From positions 492,673 to 556,672 of the forward strand of contig CP068473.1 of the NCBI GenBank assembly GCA_016766635.1: a stretch of DNA of 64,000 nucleotides, given 5' to 3'. Positions within the stretch are counted from its first letter, which is position 1. Every line of letters starts with the position of its first letter. This DNA is from Candidatus Xiphinematobacter sp. (lineage in GTDB: Bacteria; Verrucomicrobiota; Verrucomicrobiia; Chthoniobacterales; Xiphinematobacteraceae). Of the stretch, positions 37,673 through 61,905 are shown one piece after another. Position numbers and translations under genes: made by a program. A model generated the notes under the pieces. The model did not search any database. It saw only the letters and a program-made list of their open reading frames with translations, and was not told where the DNA came from.

Positions 37673-39569
37673 AACATAGAACCGACTTTAGTAACTTGGG
37701 TAACTTGGTAATTGCTGTGGTTCCTCGCGGAATTCGCAAATGCAGACTACGCGTAGGTCCTCCCTTCATTCCTATCAGAGTGGTCCTAACTCCACCCCGG
37801 AGAGAGAACACCAGGGCACCGTAGCTTCCAGCTCTCTCTCTGCGTAAATGGAGCCAACTTCTTCAAGATCCCTCCCCCCAACTGTAATCGTTTTGAGGGA
37901 AACCACCACCAACCCAAAAAACCCGCCGAGGGAGTCTCCTAAAAAAACCAATTTGATGGCAAGAAGTTTCCAGAAATCCTCTTGAAATTTTACAGAACAA
38001 GCTCGGTAAGGGCCGATTTTCTCTCTCATGCAAAAGGAATGGTACAGTGGCAAGCGGGAGCTTGGCACGCTGGTCCGACAAGTTTTTTGACTCCGGGTAT
38101 GCCGCCACACAACACCACGCGATTAGGAGCAGAGGAAAACAGTCTGGAAGCAGTTCTCTAGTTCAAGGTTTGTATTAAGCGCGGATGGCCTATCAGGACT
38201 CTTGGATTTCTCGTGGTGATTTTTTCAAACAGGCCCGACCGTGGGAACAGCTCTGAAGCATGCCGCCTGCACGGAAGGCACTAACACCTTGAAAATAGAT
38301 GAGGAATTAGTGGGTAAGTGGATGGTTTACAACTCAAAGATAGCGAACTCTGAGCCCTTGCACTCCTCTCAAATCGTACCAAGGAAAAGTTTCTGGTGTG
38401 TTTACACAAAATGTATCCCCCTCTCCGGAGGGACATTTTGATTTGACTCTCGAGGGTACCCTCGCTCATGGATGGGGCTGTTCCTTGCTTGGTTTGGTTG
38501 TTTTGATCGGAAAGAAAGCTGGTTTAGGCTAAAGATGCGCAAGGCAATCCCTAGCAGCGCAGCCTTTAAAGAACCGCGTTGGTCTTTGGTGGGTTTCTTT
38601 TGCTTCTCCTGCTATACAAAGAAAGGGCGCAGCTTCTGGCTTTTTGGCGAAGATTGTGTTACAGGTTGGCGGCGGGTGTGCGGATGGTGTGAAATACTGG
38701 CTGGCTGGGCGATCTCCCTCATAAGTAAGACTTGGGCGTCGCATCATATCAGGCGATGTTCAGGTCATAGACATCTCTGATACTGATCCCACCTTTTTGG
38801 AAAGCTGCCTTTTGTACTCGTTATCACGGGTAGAGCGACATCTTGGCTTTCTCCGTCCAGGACTCCATGGTATTGATCATATTGATCAGGTCAGGTCCAC
38901 TCCGCTTTAGACGGTTACAGTGTCTCTCCCCAGAGCCGAAAAAGGATCCTTGCTTTCCGCACAACAGAATCTGCCGAGGTAACCCTCTGGAGCCAGTACA
39001 GGACATCTTAGCTGGGAAAGTAAAATTTCTGAGAGAATGTTTCCCGCAGAGAGGTCTTGACCAGGCTGCGATTAAATCTTGCTAAAGGGATGAGCTATGT
39101 AGAGCAGGACAGCCTGCCGGGGTCGCTGTTGGCACGTCAATCAAGTTTTCTCGTAGACTTTTTATCTCCGGAGACCTCGGGACCATTTTATTTCCTGACC
39201 CAAGAATGCCTAATCCAAATTCAGGTTAATGCGTGAGTACCTTGACTTCCGCTGCTTTTGCATTCGAGTCAGGCAGGGCTGTGTGGCACCAGGTTATCAT
39301 TTCTTATTATCACTTTTGGGATGTACGCAAAGGACCTTCTCGCGAAGGGGCGGTAATTCCCCTTCCTAGGCGATCCCTTTTTAGTTTACATTGGCTCGGA
39401 TTGATTTCTAGGATGGCCTCGTGCCGTGCTGTCATCTACTATCCTTGATCCCCAATGAAGAAGGACAGGCCTTCGTCTCGGGTTGTTGTACCGTTTGGCT
39501 GGTCGAGGGAGGCCGGTTGGAGCTGGAGGCCACGTCCGTCGATTTGGGGGTCCTGGAGTTTTTCTGTTT
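37673..39569. other. Largest gap in the window, 1.9 kb, no gene recognised
   Basis: All six frames were read; the open frames are short (at most about 110 codons), lack ribosome binding sites and show no family motifs. No signature of tmRNA, RNase P RNA or SRP RNA was found, although these would be expected in such gaps. This may be decayed genes beyond recognition. Confidence 0.45.
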
Positions 39570-50431: not shown

Positions 50432-51580
50432 TCAACCTTTTGTAGGCGCGTGAGTGTCTAGAAGGTATGAGGATGCAGAAGAAACGGGATGGCCCATGCG
50501 GTAGATATTTAACAGAATGCCCACTATGAAGAGACAAATAGTCATGTTAGACCCACCATAACTGATAAACGGCAAGGGCATTCCCTTGTTAGGCAATAGG
50601 GAAATGGAAACACCTATGTTGATCATTGCTTGAAGGGTGATGAGCACAGTCAGTCCAAACCCAAGAAGGACTCCAAAGAAATCCCTAGAATTGAAAGAAA
50701 TCAGTGCTCCACATAAGAAGATGAGAAGATAGCAAAAGATAATTGTAAGTGTCGCAATAAGGCCGAGCTCTTCCCCAATCATAGCAAAGATGAAATCTGT
50801 GTGAGCATAGGGGAGATAAGAATACTTTTGCCGGCCTTCTCCCAGCCCCAACCCTGTAATCCCACCAGAACCAAAGGCAATGAGAGCCTGCCATTGTTGC
50901 AATCCTTCATCCAAACGATATTGTTCGGGATGCAAGAACGCCGTTAGACGACCAGCCCGTTCACGGATGTGAGTAGCACTGTAGAGAACTACACCTAATC
51001 CGGCGATGGCGAGCGGTACCAACCGGTAGAGGCTAATCCCGGCTGCAAACATGACGAGAAACGCTGTACCGAGAATGAGCACGGTGGTCCCTAAATCTAC
51101 TTCATTGGCAATCAGTGCTGTTGGAATGCCAGCAATGACTGCTGGAAAGATAAAACCTGCAAGCAAATTGTCGGAACGGTGCCTGAATTTAGAGAACCAT
51201 CTGGCTAAAAAAATTGCTACTGCCAATTTGCCGATTTCGCTAGGCTGGAACGTTACAATTCGTAGATTGATCCACCGCCAAGAACCGTTAATTTTTATCC
51301 CAACTGGAGGGATAAAACACAGCACCAATAGAAGCGTCCCCCCCACTAGCCAGATCCACCATGTTCTTCCCCACCAATGGTAATTTACTAGGGAAGCTGC
51401 CACACAAAGCATTATCCCAATCACCAACCATAAGAGCTGCCGCCTAACAAAGTAGTACATATCTCCGCAACTCTCTTTAGAAAAGGCGCTTGTGCTAAAC
51501 AGCACAATGATTCCCAGCACCAACAACACTGCGACCGCGGTAAGCAGGATGTATACGCTGTGTTTGTGCAAGAAGTACAC
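50432..51580 (-). CDS. ftsW: SEDS peptidoglycan polymerase FtsW
   Basis: FtsW polymerises glycan strands at the septum together with the class B PBP FtsI. The 382-residue protein has about ten membrane helices and the SEDS motifs FQPSEIGKLAVAIFLARW, ANEVDLGTTVLI (with the expected catalytic Asp) and NKGMPLPFISYGGSNM. The GTG start is preceded by about 135 bases without a gene, after the small membrane protein. Placement inside the dcw cluster favours FtsW over RodA. Confidence 0.95.
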   Translation of the reverse strand: MYFLHKHSVYILLTAVAVLLVLGIIVLFSTSAFSKESCGDMYYFVRRQLLWLVIGIMLCVAASLVNYHWWGRTWWIWLVGGTLLLVLCFIPPVGIKINGSWRWINLRIVTFQPSEIGKLAVAIFLARWFSKFRHRSDNLLAGFIFPAVIAGIPTALIANEVDLGTTVLILGTAFLVMFAAGISLYRLVPLAIAGLGVVLYSATHIRERAGRLTAFLHPEQYRLDEGLQQWQALIAFGSGGITGLGLGEGRQKYSYLPYAHTDFIFAMIGEELGLIATLTIIFCYLLIFLCGALISFNSRDFFGVLLGFGLTVLITLQAMINIGVSISLLPNKGMPLPFISYGGSNMTICLFIVGILLNIYRMGHPVSSASSYLLDTHAPTKG

Positions 51581-51715
51581 GGCAAGGAGAAGGTGTTCTA
51601 GCGCCTCAGTATGTGTGCCTTATTTTGTGACAGCTTAAAACAAAAAGCAGAATCCAGCCTGACTTTTAGGAAGAGGAGCACAGAACGGCCAAAAGAAGTT
51701 ACAGTCAGGAAGGTT

Positions 51716-52051
51716 TCATCCACCCCCGTCGGGCAGGGCGTGATAGAGGTAACTTGCAGCCGCCCCCTGCGGTACCTCTCTAGGCCTAGTATGATAGTCA
51801 AAGAAGAGGCAGACCCCGACAACAAGGATGAAATGGAGGGCAAGTATCACGAAAAAAATGCGTGTGAGTCTTAAATTATTTGCAAGTCCTGAGCTATTTT
51901 CTTTCTTTCCGTACTGGCCTTGCTCGTCTGGATTAGATGCCGCTAGACGTAAAGAGTCTACTCTCTCTTCAAAAAAATGAGTAGGTGTCCGGCACGACTG
52001 TAAGCGGGTAAACACTCTTGACTCTATCATTCGGGATAGCGGATTCGTCAT
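51716..52051 (-). CDS. Uncharacterised small bitopic membrane protein in the dcw cluster
   Basis: The ATG at 52049-52051 overlaps the murD stop in an ATGA arrangement, like other junctions of this cluster, which argues that it is real. The 111-residue product has about 65 mostly charged cytoplasmic residues (HFFEERVDSLRLAASNPDEQ region), one strong membrane helix (FFVILALHFILVVGVCLFF) and a short periplasmic tail (YHTRPREVPQG). No domain was recognised. FtsL and FtsQ candidates exist elsewhere in the cluster, so it is not simply one of those. It might be a truncated version of a longer envelope protein or an additional divisome component. Confidence 0.65.
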   Translation of the reverse strand: MTNPLSRMIESRVFTRLQSCRTPTHFFEERVDSLRLAASNPDEQGQYGKKENSSGLANNLRLTRIFFVILALHFILVVGVCLFFDYHTRPREVPQGAAASYLYHALPDGGG

Positions 52052-53364
52052 TGTCCTGGCAGGGCGTAAACAAGCTGCTTGAAGCATCTTCCGCGTTCTT
52101 CGTAACTAGAGAACATATCAGTGGAAGAAGTTCCAGGCGAAAACAGAACGATGTCACCTGGAGAAGAGAGTCTATTCGCTGAATAGACAGCCTCTTCCAG
52201 GGTTTCTGAGACTTTGGAAGGCGTAGCTTGCCAGGAAGCTGCGATGCGGTAGCGCATTTCTCCAATAAGTATGGCCACTTTCACCCTCTCCCTTATCAAG
52301 GGGGCAAGGATATCGAACTCAAATCCCTTGTCTTTTCCCCCTGCAATGAGGACCAGGGGGGCAGTTTGGGACTGGATAGCCTTTTCTAAGGCATCAAGGT
52401 TGGTGGATTTAGAGTCATTAATCCAGCAAGTATCATCTCGTCGGCAGACAAATTCACAACGGTGCTCGAGTGGTGAGTATAGACAAGCTGCGCGTGCCAT
52501 CTCTCCAAATGAGAGGCCAAGGCAATAGCCTGTTGCCAATGCAGCCATGAGATTTTCGGCATTGTGGTTACCATGGAGGGAAGTACGACCTTGATCTAGT
52601 ATGGGAGTGCCTCGGAAGAGAATCTGAGACCCTTTCTTAGTAAAGTCTGCGGTGAGGTCCCCGGCACTGAAAGTGATCGACTGTGCTACAAGATCAGGAA
52701 GACTTGCCCTGGCGTTTACCACAGCAAAATCCTTCGGAGTTTGGTTGAGAAAAATGCGAAGCTTAGCTTGACGATATTCCTCCATGCTGTGGTATCGATC
52801 CAGGTGATTCCAACTGAGATTCAACCATACGGCGACGTGAGGGCGAAAACTGCGAATAGTCTCCAGCTGGAAGGAGCTCGCTTCTACTATTACAGTATGT
52901 AGATTAGCGTGAGGCCTGGCGACAATTTCAGAAAATGGGGGTCCGATGTTCCCGCAGGCGTTGGAGAAAAGTCCGCAGGAATTGAGTAGGGTTTCTATTA
53001 GCTTGGCGGTGGTACTCTTCCCGTTGGTTCCTGTAACAGCAATGACAGGAACTCGACACTTCCAAAAAGCTAATTCAATCTCGCCGACGATGGGAATTTG
53101 CTTGCGCAGAATGTTCTGTGCAATCGGACTTGCTAGCTTGATGCCTGGACTCAGCACACAAAGGTCGTAGGAGGCAGGATCAGCATCTGCCTCTACCCCA
53201 AGGATAAAGGCTACCCCTTCTTTAGAGAGGGTCTGGGTGCGGGTACATACTGACCTACAAGCAGAGCTATCGAGACCGGTAACTAACCAGCCGTGGGTAT
53301 GCAACAGTCTCGCAGCTGCTTCCCCGCTGCGTCCTATTCCCAAGACGGCTGCTTTTTTTCTCAT
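52048..53364 (-). CDS. murD: UDP-MurNAc-L-alanine--D-glutamate ligase
   Basis: MurD adds D-glutamate, supplied by MurI, to UDP-MurNAc-L-Ala. The 438-residue protein has the N-terminal VLGIGRSGEAAARLL Rossmann loop, the ATP-binding P-loop GTNGKST (about 114-120), central LNLSWNHLDRY and C-terminal LIAGGKDKGFEF and LFSPGTSSTDMF. The ATG at 53364 follows a TTG in the same frame by one codon. It lies 13 bases after the mraY stop. Confidence 0.96.
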   Translation of the reverse strand: MRKKAAVLGIGRSGEAAARLLHTHGWLVTGLDSSACRSVCTRTQTLSKEGVAFILGVEADADPASYDLCVLSPGIKLASPIAQNILRKQIPIVGEIELAFWKCRVPVIAVTGTNGKSTTAKLIETLLNSCGLFSNACGNIGPPFSEIVARPHANLHTVIVEASSFQLETIRSFRPHVAVWLNLSWNHLDRYHSMEEYRQAKLRIFLNQTPKDFAVVNARASLPDLVAQSITFSAGDLTADFTKKGSQILFRGTPILDQGRTSLHGNHNAENLMAALATGYCLGLSFGEMARAACLYSPLEHRCEFVCRRDDTCWINDSKSTNLDALEKAIQSQTAPLVLIAGGKDKGFEFDILAPLIRERVKVAILIGEMRYRIAASWQATPSKVSETLEEAVYSANRLSSPGDIVLFSPGTSSTDMFSSYEERGRCFKQLVYALPGQ

Positions 53365-53377
53365 CAAAGATGGGGTC

Positions 53378-57351: not shown

Positions 57352-59117
57352 CGCATTGAGTTAAGCCCTGCCTGACTCTTTTGTAGAGGACTCAATGGGT
57401 GACCTCTCTTGATGATGGAGAGAGGGGGCAAGCCCATGTAGCGAGCTGTTCTCTCTGCAATGCGGGAAAAGATGGGAGCAGATACCAGCCCCCCATAAGC
57501 CATACTGGAGGGCACTTTGGCATCATCTACCACGACTAGGCAAACGAATTGTGGATCCTTTCTCGGGAGGAAGCCGGCGAAAGAAGCGACGTAGCGTCCC
57601 TTATGATATCCTCCCCTGTAATCTACCTTTTGGGCAGTTCCTGTTTTTCCGGCTACTTCAAAGCCGTTGACGCGTGCCTGCACTGCAGTCCCCCTGTGGC
57701 TTACTACCTCTGTTAGCGCATCCCCCATCGCTTTGGCTGTCTCTGAGGAGATCACTTGCCGAACAAAGTGAGGAGAAATGGTACTGACTGGTCTTCCTTC
57801 TCCATCAAGAAGTGCCTTTACAATGTGTGGAGCCATGAGTTTTCCCTCATTGGCAATAGCACTCATGGCAACGGTGAGCTGAAGGGGGGTGACGGCCACT
57901 TCATATCCCATGGGGATTCGGGTAATGCTCGTCTTGCTCCAACGATGTGGTGGATGGATAATCCCGCTAGCCTCACTAGGTAGCTCAACGCCTGTTCTAT
58001 CTCCAAATCCGAATTTCCGAATGTATCTGTACAGGCGCTGATTGCCCAATAAAAACGCTAGCTTGGCTGCACCGATGTTAGAGGACTTAACCAAAGTGTC
58101 GTGTACAGAAAGATATTCGTAAGCTTTGTGGTCCCTGAGGATGACTCCACCGTGGCAGAATTCGCCATTCTCACAAAAAATGGCGCTTGTCGGACGCACC
58201 AATCCTTCGTTCAGTACTCCAGAAGTAATGACGATCTTAAAGGTGGATCCTGGCTCTATCATATCCATGACGGCATAGTTCCTTAGCTGATTTGGAGTAG
58301 AAGCTCCCACACTGTTAGGATTAAACGTGGGACGGTTAGCCATGGCCAAGATTTCCCCAGTTTGGGGGCGTATCATGACGGAGCTGATATACGAAGCTTT
58401 GAGCTCGTGGTAAGCAGCATCCACTTCTTTTTCCACAATAGCCTGCAAGTTCGTGTCGATGGTGAGTTGGATATTAATCCCGTTGCGAGGGGGGTGCTCC
58501 TGCCCACGATAGATCACGATTTCTCTTCCGGTACGGTCCCGTTCAATAAGGCGAAATCCGTTTTTACCTTCCAGGTAGGCTGCCATGGAAGCCTCCAGGC
58601 CTTGTACGCCTTGTCCTCTATGGTCCAAAAATCCTAGCACTTGGGAAAGCAACTCCCCATTAGGGTAAACGCGCTGTAGCTCTTGTTCAAAGGACAAACC
58701 ACGCAGTGAAGTCTTCCGTAATTCCTTCATTAAGGCTCTAGCTCGGTCTTCAGGAAATTTTCTTTTGACCACCACATACTTGCGCTCCGTTCTAAGTCTC
58801 GGGAGAAGTTCTTCAACAGGAATTGAAAGGAAGGGAGCGGCACACCTTGCCAGCGCATTTGCATCTCTGATTAAGGAACCGTCTGCCACAACTGTTTTTA
58901 GCGGAAGATTAGCAGCTAGAATCTCCTTATTAGCATCGAGAATAAGTCCACGACGAGCGTGGAGAATTTGGCGAATGGAGTGTTTCTGTGCAGCCAAGGC
59001 TGTAAATTCGTGGTACTTGGTAATCTGGACATAGGCCAATTGGATGGAGTATCCGGTGAGAATCAAGGAAAGCCCAATTCCTGCCCAAGCTATACGAATC
59101 TGTACATTCTGTCTCAC
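57348..59117 (-). CDS. ftsI: Septal transpeptidase FtsI (class B penicillin-binding protein)
   Basis: FtsI cross-links septal peptidoglycan as FtsW's partner. The 589-residue protein has an N-terminal membrane helix (about 8-30), the pedestal domain (including the RGLILDANKEILA segment) and the transpeptidase domain. Its active-site motifs are GSTFK near 290, SSN near 342 (VKSSNIG) and KTGTAQ near 490. The PASTA repeats seen in some orthologs are missing. The GTG start overlaps the ftsL stop by 4 bases (GTGA), and it runs straight into murE. Confidence 0.95.
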   Translation of the reverse strand: MRQNVQIRIAWAGIGLSLILTGYSIQLAYVQITKYHEFTALAAQKHSIRQILHARRGLILDANKEILAANLPLKTVVADGSLIRDANALARCAAPFLSIPVEELLPRLRTERKYVVVKRKFPEDRARALMKELRKTSLRGLSFEQELQRVYPNGELLSQVLGFLDHRGQGVQGLEASMAAYLEGKNGFRLIERDRTGREIVIYRGQEHPPRNGINIQLTIDTNLQAIVEKEVDAAYHELKASYISSVMIRPQTGEILAMANRPTFNPNSVGASTPNQLRNYAVMDMIEPGSTFKIVITSGVLNEGLVRPTSAIFCENGEFCHGGVILRDHKAYEYLSVHDTLVKSSNIGAAKLAFLLGNQRLYRYIRKFGFGDRTGVELPSEASGIIHPPHRWSKTSITRIPMGYEVAVTPLQLTVAMSAIANEGKLMAPHIVKALLDGEGRPVSTISPHFVRQVISSETAKAMGDALTEVVSHRGTAVQARVNGFEVAGKTGTAQKVDYRGGYHKGRYVASFAGFLPRKDPQFVCLVVVDDAKVPSSMAYGGLVSAPIFSRIAERTARYMGLPPLSIIKRGHPLSPLQKSQAGLNSMR

Positions 59118-59467
59118 TGGTGTAACTCCCTGTTAAGGGCGGTCCTCATATCGTCGCGTGCAATTTCCGGAACAATTAGGTGAGCAACGTATCGATCCTG
59201 GATCGTTTGCATAAAAATAGCCATCGATTCTAGCTTTTTTTGGATAGCAGAACGTGAGGAGAGTGTAGCAATTTCAGCCAGCAGCACTTGATTGCTTATG
59301 TGTGTCTCGTAAAGATTTTTCTCGAGCCTCCGAATATTTTGCCCAAGTTGAAATTGCTGGTTTTTTAGATAGACCACTTGCAACCCAACTCCCCCTAGAA
59401 TAAGTGCAATCAAAGTCCACCGGAAAATGGGGCGTGGTTCAATGGAATTTCTGCTTTCTGTATTCAT
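59114..59467 (-). CDS. ftsL: FtsL-like bitopic division protein
   Basis: The 117-residue product has a short cytoplasmic N-terminus, one membrane helix (about 16-34) and a predicted coiled coil (about 38-75, with LGQNIRRLEKNLYE). This is the pattern of FtsL, which bridges FtsQ and FtsB to FtsW-FtsI. Sequence similarity is weak in this family, so the call rests on size, topology and position between rsmH and ftsI. The ATG overlaps the rsmH stop by 4 bases. Confidence 0.75.
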   Translation of the reverse strand: MNTESRNSIEPRPIFRWTLIALILGGVGLQVVYLKNQQFQLGQNIRRLEKNLYETHISNQVLLAEIATLSSRSAIQKKLESMAIFMQTIQDRYVAHLIVPEIARDDMRTALNRELHQ

Positions 59468-60573: not shown

Positions 60574-61905
60574 CTAGTGATCGTTAACTATTAAATCAAA
60601 GCACTGTAAGAACGTTGTAGTAAACGACCCTGGCTCTTTCCGAATCCACCTTTGGATGGTCTCCTCTTCAAAAAAGGCCCCAATATCAATCTCCATGGGC
60701 GTGAGAGAAAAAGGTCCCTCTTGTTGGGTAAAAAAAACTTCAATGAATTCCCATCCCGTTTCTGCAGAGGCTTGTAGGCTGCCTTTTTTCAAAAGCCAGT
60801 CACATCTCGTGACTCCTAATTCCTCGCATAGCTCCCTGCGCGCAGCAATCTCATAGCCTTCCCCAGACAGGAGATGTCCTGCGACGCTAGAATCCCACTT
60901 ACCTGGGTTGCTATCCTTCCAAATGGATCTCCTTTGCAAAAACCATTTGCCAACCCTATTCCGTATCAGAACATGCACGGATCGATGTGGAAGGTTTTCC
61001 GTGTGGATCTCCGCGCGTGGCACCCGAGTTACCACTCGATTCTGGAAATCTACAACATCAAGCTCCTCTGCGCGCGCGGCCATAGTTTGGGGACGGAATG
61101 GACTAAGCCGGCAAGCCAGCTCTGCGTAATCGGCATGGGAGAGTTCTTCTGCCCGTGCAAGGGGAGAGATTCCCATCTCTTCAGCAAATTTTTCCCACAC
61201 ACCTTTCGTGTTCCCCAGCAACTTTCGCAATTGCTTCCTGCGCTCGGAGAATCCGAGGTACACTATCCTTTCAAAAAGGGCCTCATCACAGAAATGGACA
61301 ACCTCTCGTGGTGTGAAAAGGATAATGGACGAATGCACCCTGGGTTTTGGATAAAAAACACTAGGTGAGAGGTTGCGCAGGAGTTGTATCTTCCAGCGAT
61401 GCTGGATACAGACCGTCATTATTCCATATTCTCTAGTGTGCGGGGCTGCAACTAGTCGCTCTGCTAATTCCCTTTGCACAGCAAAAACCAGCCGAATTGC
61501 TGGTGAGAGCTTATTGAGAAACCGCATAAGGATGGGAGAGGATACATAATAGGGTAAATTCCCGATGACTTTTACCCGTCCGAATCCGTAAAATCTGAGG
61601 AGATCAACACGTGTCGCATCCTCCTGGATGACATGGAGAGTATTTCCTAATCTCTGAACTAATGCACCCGCAAGACGGCCATCCTTCTCTACCACGGTTA
61701 TTCGTCCCACTCCAGCCTGCATCAAATATTCCGTGAGAGCACCTAACCCTGGACCTAATTCCACCACGTGGTCTCCGTGATCTAGAGAGAGCCTTGACAC
61801 CATCCATCGCGCGAGATTTTGATCATGCAGGAAGTTTTGCCCCAAGCTTTTTGCGGGTTCCAGGGCCAGCTTCCTAAGACAGTCTCGTACCTCTTTGAGG
61901 GTCAT
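60574..61905 (-). CDS. rsmA: RsmA (KsgA) 16S rRNA dimethyltransferase fused to a Nudix hydrolase domain
   Basis: Residues 1-272 are a complete RsmA, which dimethylates two adenines near the 16S rRNA 3' end. It shows KSLGQNFLHD (19-28), the SAM loop ELGPGLGALTEY and the catalytic NLPYY (116-120). After a short linker, residues about 278-443 form a Nudix domain. Its box (343-365) fits Gx5Ex7RExxEExGx in full, with REL and EELG. The domain is of the kind with VVDFQNRVVTRVPR and HVLIRN, related to isopentenyl-diphosphate isomerase/YfcD-like proteins. The reading frame is uninterrupted, so this is a fusion rather than two genes. It lies upstream of rsmH on the same strand. Confidence 0.92.
   Translation of the reverse strand: MTLKEVRDCLRKLALEPAKSLGQNFLHDQNLARWMVSRLSLDHGDHVVELGPGLGALTEYLMQAGVGRITVVEKDGRLAGALVQRLGNTLHVIQEDATRVDLLRFYGFGRVKVIGNLPYYVSSPILMRFLNKLSPAIRLVFAVQRELAERLVAAPHTREYGIMTVCIQHRWKIQLLRNLSPSVFYPKPRVHSSIILFTPREVVHFCDEALFERIVYLGFSERRKQLRKLLGNTKGVWEKFAEEMGISPLARAEELSHADYAELACRLSPFRPQTMAARAEELDVVDFQNRVVTRVPRAEIHTENLPHRSVHVLIRNRVGKWFLQRRSIWKDSNPGKWDSSVAGHLLSGEGYEIAARRELCEELGVTRCDWLLKKGSLQASAETGWEFIEVFFTQQEGPFSLTPMEIDIGAFFEEETIQRWIRKEPGSFTTTFLQCFDLIVNDH

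Follow-up and report, generated by a model that had tools for sequence, protein, structure and literature searches.

A predicted LysM-less, C-terminally truncated ortholog of the Verrucomicrobiota LysM protein encoded before ftsW in a nematode symbiont

The window analysed here is a 64,000-nt stretch of the single-contig, 917,278-bp genome of Candidatus Xiphinematobacter sp. (CP068473.1). Both this bacterium and its sister symbiont, designated G003 (915,884 bp), are reduced endosymbionts of plant-parasitic (dagger) nematodes. The minus strand of the window carries a division and cell wall (dcw) cluster in which family models identify mraY, murD, ftsW and murG (the last just below cut-off), and between murD and ftsW lies a frame of 111 residues that is single-copy in its genome. 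Its ATG (52051-52049) overlaps the murD stop codon (52050-52048) as ATGA, and its stop codon occupies 51718-51716. The true start may instead be the ATG at 52030, proposed because it aligns with the start of the G003 frame, which begins as TGATG over the murD stop. The features of the locus, all on the minus strand, are as follows:

52048..53367 (-): murD (TIGR01087, 375 bits), overlapping the frame by 4 nt
51716..52051 (-): predicted truncated protein of the murD-ftsW slot, 111 codons plus stop, with a homolog in G003 and a family HMM match at E 1e-9
51878..52051 (-): N-terminal part, presumably cytoplasmic, residues 1-58; dN/dS 0.8 (95% 0.35-1.5) between the two symbionts and 0.02-0.30 in full-length relatives
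51800..51877 (-): transmembrane block, residues 59-84; contains His73, the intramembrane His of the family signature; dN/dS 0.13-0.16; His in 33 of 34 full-length proteins
51719..51799 (-): short post-helix tail, residues 85-111; identity to G003 at 8 of 27 residues; relatives continue here with a linker and LysM domains
51581..51715 (-): 135-nt gap to ftsW, LysM-coding part lost; remnant undetectable (observed score attained by 1754 and 1767 of 2000 shuffles)
50432..51580 (-): ftsW (TIGR02614, 344 bits), with a GTG start at 51580

The encoded product has a single strongly hydrophobic segment (best 19-residue Kyte-Doolittle mean 3.02, from residue 65), which makes the label bitopic a reasonable one. 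These coordinates, the hydrophobic segment and the counterpart in G003 bear out the initial annotation, which had described a real membrane protein frame of this length coupled to murD within the dcw cluster. The tight coupling to its neighbours claimed there holds for murD through the ATGA overlap and fails for ftsW, which lies 135 nt away. The same annotation had found that the frame matched no standard dcw product, and searches of Pfam and NCBIfam up to E 1 indeed returned nothing for it, although its descent, as described below, leads back to a protein that Verrucomicrobiota encode in this very slot.

With the frame as query against 57 genomes, G003 was recovered at 2e-20 and matches elsewhere were weak. 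We read the murD-ftsW interval in the loci holding both genes, and assembled a full-length set of 34 distinct Verrucomicrobiota slot proteins after dropping three duplicate loci and leaving out the loci from outside the phylum (L039, L041 onwards), most of which, where both genes are present, have murD and ftsW too close together for an intervening gene. All 34 full-length proteins carry a LysM domain; they are the longer homologs that the initial annotation had suspected at this junction. In two further genomes assigned to the genus (1.9 and 2.5 Mb), the slot proteins are 320-322 aa long. In 9 of the 34 loci, the slot gene read from its leftmost start has a 4-nt overlap with the murD stop. 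An HMM built from the 34 proteins scores 28 bits on the window frame (E 1e-9) and 45 bits on the G003 frame (E 8e-15). Furthermore, the window frame occupies the same position, after murD and directly before ftsW, and carries the transmembrane signature of the family, L.LH....G.

The slot protein extends across the phylum. Among 20 further loci, hand-picked from among the ftsW matches listed, 18 have a family-HMM match upstream of ftsW; the exceptions are L129 and L130, and in the latter ftsW itself was not recovered on re-search. A murD match is absent from seven of the 20, five of which have mraY in the locus instead, so that ftsW is the constant neighbour and murD a common one. The family HMM contains LysM, so a match establishes a LysM protein in the slot but does not on its own establish a shared anchor. 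Anchors are of two kinds, one a helix extended N-terminally and the other a short lipoprotein-like signal (e.g. MKILKVFGIVVGIHV...GC in L122). A helix-only model finds matches in 32 of 240 genomes, a figure that understates the spread of the slot protein because the lipoprotein-like signal replaces the helix in other genomes. By visual comparison, 22 of the 34 places found with this model adjoin ftsW among the matches listed; six more, each the best place of its genome (G227, G235, G238, G247, G283 and G286), fall outside the ftsW matches listed, and two are second matches in genomes already counted (G009 and G286). The places in G196, G233, G239 and G282 were taken as chance, with ftsW on another contig or none among the matches listed. 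The slot proteins of L119, L122-L126 and L134 all start with the short lipoprotein-like signal (e.g. MK.SK.FG.V..LHL......GC), which is similar to the helix block seen in the other group and often has its His too; from this likeness, the two anchors may share one origin.

The LysM domain of the family is missing from the window frame by Pfam and leaves no remnant in the gap that follows, so the frame is a truncated descendant and not a working member of the slot LysM family. In G003 the frame spans 103 codons from the ATG at position 1522 of locus L002, and is followed by more than 400 nt before ftsW. Near the end of this G003 gap lies a LysM-like segment behind stop codons (PYKLQVGTKLKVPP, against DPTKLQIGAKLQIP in a full-length relative), which its sequence identifies as a broken remnant of the last LysM domain. 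Aligned with the L031 gene, the G003 gap scores 117, a value reached by none of 2000 dinucleotide shuffles; with L032 the signal is weak, 140 of 2000 shuffles reaching the score. The same test of the window gap against full-length relatives was null, indicating that the LysM part is altogether gone there, and a likeness of the window gap to the G003 remnant that had been spotted by eye proved to be chance (1309 of 2000 shuffles). When soft gap costs were used, nucleotide comparison of the gaps yielded no signal, since alignments made in this way run long and at random; under stricter costs the G003-L031 remnant stands out, and G003-L032 and every window-gap test do not.

A second LysM gene appears to be undergoing loss in these symbionts: a LysM protein of 140 aa at G003:C1:823621-823728 (L113) looks like a cut-down version of the 281-aa G001 protein (L112), and its counterpart has no match over the cut-off in the window's genome. 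Elsewhere, that genome retains a further LysM protein that passes the cut-off and a single M23 protein, and it has therefore not rid itself of all wall-binding proteins.

Taken together, these comparisons identify the frame, as judged from sequence, as a C-terminally truncated, LysM-less ortholog of the LysM protein that Verrucomicrobiota encode before ftsW. We hold this identity with high confidence, as orthology, truncation and constraint on the helix at the protein level while the two symbionts diverged were all observed. The initial annotation had taken the frame for a distinct, undescribed protein; it is instead the eroded remainder of one that is standard before ftsW in this phylum. That a wholly unrelated, lineage-specific small protein arose in the gap after loss of the LysM gene would fit the lack of a Pfam or NCBIfam match, but is close to inconceivable given the family-HMM match, the LysM remnant behind the same frame in G003 and the helix signature common to full-length slot proteins.

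The frame is open in G003 in the same slot, with 48 of 96 aligned residues identical, and selection was estimated from these two symbiont genomes, on which the whole comparison rests. The dN/dS ratio is 0.18 for murD, 0.105 for ftsW and 0.455 for the frame (LR against 1: 7.6). The earlier suggestion that a value near 1 would speak against the proposal made there can be set beside whole-frame estimates of 0.34-0.46, which indicate constraint overall. The lower of these, 0.34, was read from an earlier ATG at 52087, so that 12 codons overlap murD, and comes from a survey of the 44 window frames of at least 100 aa against G003 (median 0.12, 90th percentile 0.21), in which this frame is the fastest-evolving with a full-length G003 match.

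The constraint is concentrated in the helix. Residues 1-55 have a dN/dS of 0.82, not different from 1, and the tail has 0.39 (LR 3.1), without significant constraint, compared to 0.135 for the helix block of residues 56-84 (LR 9.84, p about 0.002, to be read as about 0.01 because six overlapping stretches were tested) and 0.128 for residues 59-84; helix boundaries were set by hydrophobicity, not by rates. When the transition rate was shared with murD and ftsW, the helix gave 0.16 (95% 0.05-0.5) and the N-terminus 0.8 (0.35-1.5), and when dS was also fixed the estimates were 0.7 (0.5-1.0) for the N-terminus, 0.2 (0.1-0.4) for the helix and above 1, i.e. not alignable, for the tail. These observations are underscored by neutral simulations started from the window codons and run to the murD/ftsW distance, in which the observed helix identity (19/25, against 10.0 expected) was reached in 2 of 5000 runs, while the N-terminal identity (21/44) equals the neutral expectation (1841 of 5000). 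Synonymous changes are not depressed in the helix (dS 0.9-1.0, against 0.5-0.67 in murD and ftsW), and the constraint therefore acts on the protein. Conservation had been expected at the N-terminus; between the symbionts it is found in the transmembrane block, the N-terminal part being near neutral.

The helix is also the most conserved block in 13 pairs of full-length relatives, with 20-26 of 26 residues identical and a dN/dS of 0-0.09, and the N-terminus has 0.02-0.30 in 12 pairs and is saturated in one; many dS values among these pairs are saturated, which makes the rates only rough. The symbiont helix is looser than that of any full-length pair, and the symbiont N-terminus looser still. 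Of the 15 helix-segment columns kept in at least 28 of the 34 proteins, the window retains 9 and G003 retains 10 by visual count, and the intramembrane His is present in both. The unusual conservation of the helix in full-length proteins and the near-universal His suggest, at the level of sequence, that this segment does more than anchor the protein.

Whether the symbiont frame still functions was weighed against decay. We consider it probable, though by no means assured, that what remains of the frame is still expressed and has a present function, and it is most likely a reduced division or cell-wall protein. The alternative, which we regard as a distinct if lesser possibility, is that of a decaying gene without present function, full-length and constrained for most of the divergence, then truncated and now drifting, so that the constraint seen in the helix dates from its full-length past. 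The broken LysM part in G003 and its disappearance in the window, the near-neutral N-terminus and the rank of the frame as the fastest-evolving of its class all agree with decay. To quantify it, a model of constraint followed by neutral drift with one shared drift fraction f was fitted, yielding an f of about 0.33 (0.18-0.60) and leaving the truncation free to fall before or after the symbiont split. The helix and the N-terminal part demand different fractions, however, and the shared-f model is worse than separate rates by an LR of 3.63 (1 df; 1.24 to 4.49 with other assumed starting rates), a marginal deficit by which a single phase change is not firmly rejected.

Gaps and stop codons bear on the same question. 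Of 20 spacers, 17 gave a usable alignment and together contain 338 gaps over 4076 aligned bases, about one per 12; the other three, the murD-ftsW one included, were dropped for containing coding sequence. The retained part of the frame (66 aligned codons within residues 8-84) has three gaps, none of them frameshifting, where about 16 would be expected under neutrality throughout, and has therefore not been neutral the whole time. Taking two thirds of gaps as frameshifts, the chance of seeing none is about 0.03 at f 0.33 and 0.14 at f 0.18, although spacer alignments overstate gaps and these chances serve as guides. The chance of no stop in 77 codons is 0.39 at f 0.33, which decay accommodates readily, and 0.58 at f 0.18. 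The absence of frameshifts in either lineage, despite the frequency with which spacers gain gaps, and a frame open in both symbionts weigh against decay.

It is very improbable that the stretch matters as RNA or DNA (a leader, a terminator or a coupling spacer for ftsW) with the protein incidental. This reading draws on a hairpin with a perfect 11-bp stem (CTTGCGCCTCC TGAA GGAGGCGCAAG) located right where the truncated G003 frame ends (L002 1798-1823; z -3.84), a rarity in that 100 kb contain just two perfect hairpins whose stem reaches 10 or more. The hairpin is absent from the window, which folds without such structure (z -0.52); moreover, synonymous sites of the helix are not conserved, and the gap to ftsW differs between the window and G003 by hundreds of nucleotides (135 nt against more than 400). 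The G003 hairpin may be a terminator, an insertion scar or neither.

The best overall explanation, which we favour with some reserve, is that the frame is a LysM-less ortholog whose product is still made, with selection still acting mainly on the transmembrane helix. A cell-wall or division role, as previously proposed, would follow naturally from its position and ancestry. Judging from gene position and domain content, the full-length form would be a membrane anchor whose highly conserved helix carries one or two LysM domains to peptidoglycan, tying septal wall material to the lipid II/FtsW machinery. In the nematode symbionts, linker and LysM domains would have been destroyed, leaving a frame that stops shortly after the helix and is most likely still made by coupling to murD. 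In the simplest mechanism, the helix would pack against FtsW, FtsI or another membrane partner with a neighbouring gene, and assembly of the complex could then survive without peptidoglycan binding; the choice of FtsW or FtsI is a tentative guess from gene position. More speculatively, and rather doubtfully, the helix with its intramembrane His might be an FtsW/FtsI ligand or stabiliser throughout Verrucomicrobiota, with LysM an accessory and the symbionts a natural deletion that keeps only the helix peptide. Were this so, the conserved business of the slot protein would be in the membrane and not in the wall. The symbionts would in any case amount to a natural domain-deletion experiment, with wall-binding domains gone and the helix kept: if the helix is what matters, it points to a new membrane partner for the septal wall machinery, and if the gene is merely dying, it documents simplification of that machinery in an intracellular bacterium.

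Among known systems, the closest is the Verrucomicrobiota slot LysM protein itself, alike by descent in its place after murD and before ftsW, its basic N-terminal stretch and its one helix with L.LH....G; the window frame differs in lacking LysM, in stopping shortly after the helix and in its near-neutral N-terminus. We take the chlamydial NlpD-type gene to occupy the same murD-ftsW slot and its product to be a membrane-associated septal wall protein. The window frame, unlike that product, has no LysM, M23, NlpC/P60 or other enzyme domain, and among NlpD/LytM amidase activators it likewise finds no place, having no LytM (Peptidase_M23) domain, while the one M23 match of the genome lies elsewhere. 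Septal localisation and activity have been reported for the chlamydial NlpD-type proteins (PMC5147048, PMC6956297). A parallel is offered by chlamydial RodZ, described as lacking the periplasmic domain (PMC5147048): there too, the periplasmic domain of a shape or division membrane protein has been lost in an intracellular PVC bacterium while the remainder was spared. RodZ is an unrelated protein, though, and in the window frame it is the helix that is constrained and the cytoplasmic part that is near neutral. FtsL and FtsB family models (Pfam and NCBIfam, up to E 1) do not match the frame; bitopic divisome proteins of this type have a periplasmic coiled coil after the helix, where the frame has only 27 residues, and a separate 117-aa frame at 59114-59467 sits in the FtsL position, from which alone it takes that name.

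LysM genes near the dcw cluster are already in print, if only in passing: the legend to Figure 7 of one paper marks them in verrucomicrobial murB/C neighbourhoods (PMC4803751). In Verrucomicrobium spinosum most dcw genes are reported as essential, in a paper whose main text has no occurrence of LysM (PMC12283558). A search of open-licence PMC papers found no study of the slot protein, although it sits before ftsW across much of Verrucomicrobiota.

Two further observations concern other parts of the window. In a 443-aa frame at 60574-61905 on the minus strand, a KsgA-type rRNA adenine dimethylase and a NUDIX domain are joined; the frame aligns over its full length in G003 (443/443, 78% identity). 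At 37812-39438, a gene-poor stretch of about 1.6 kb between tRNA-Leu genes has no frame matching G003, and perhaps consists of eroded genes.
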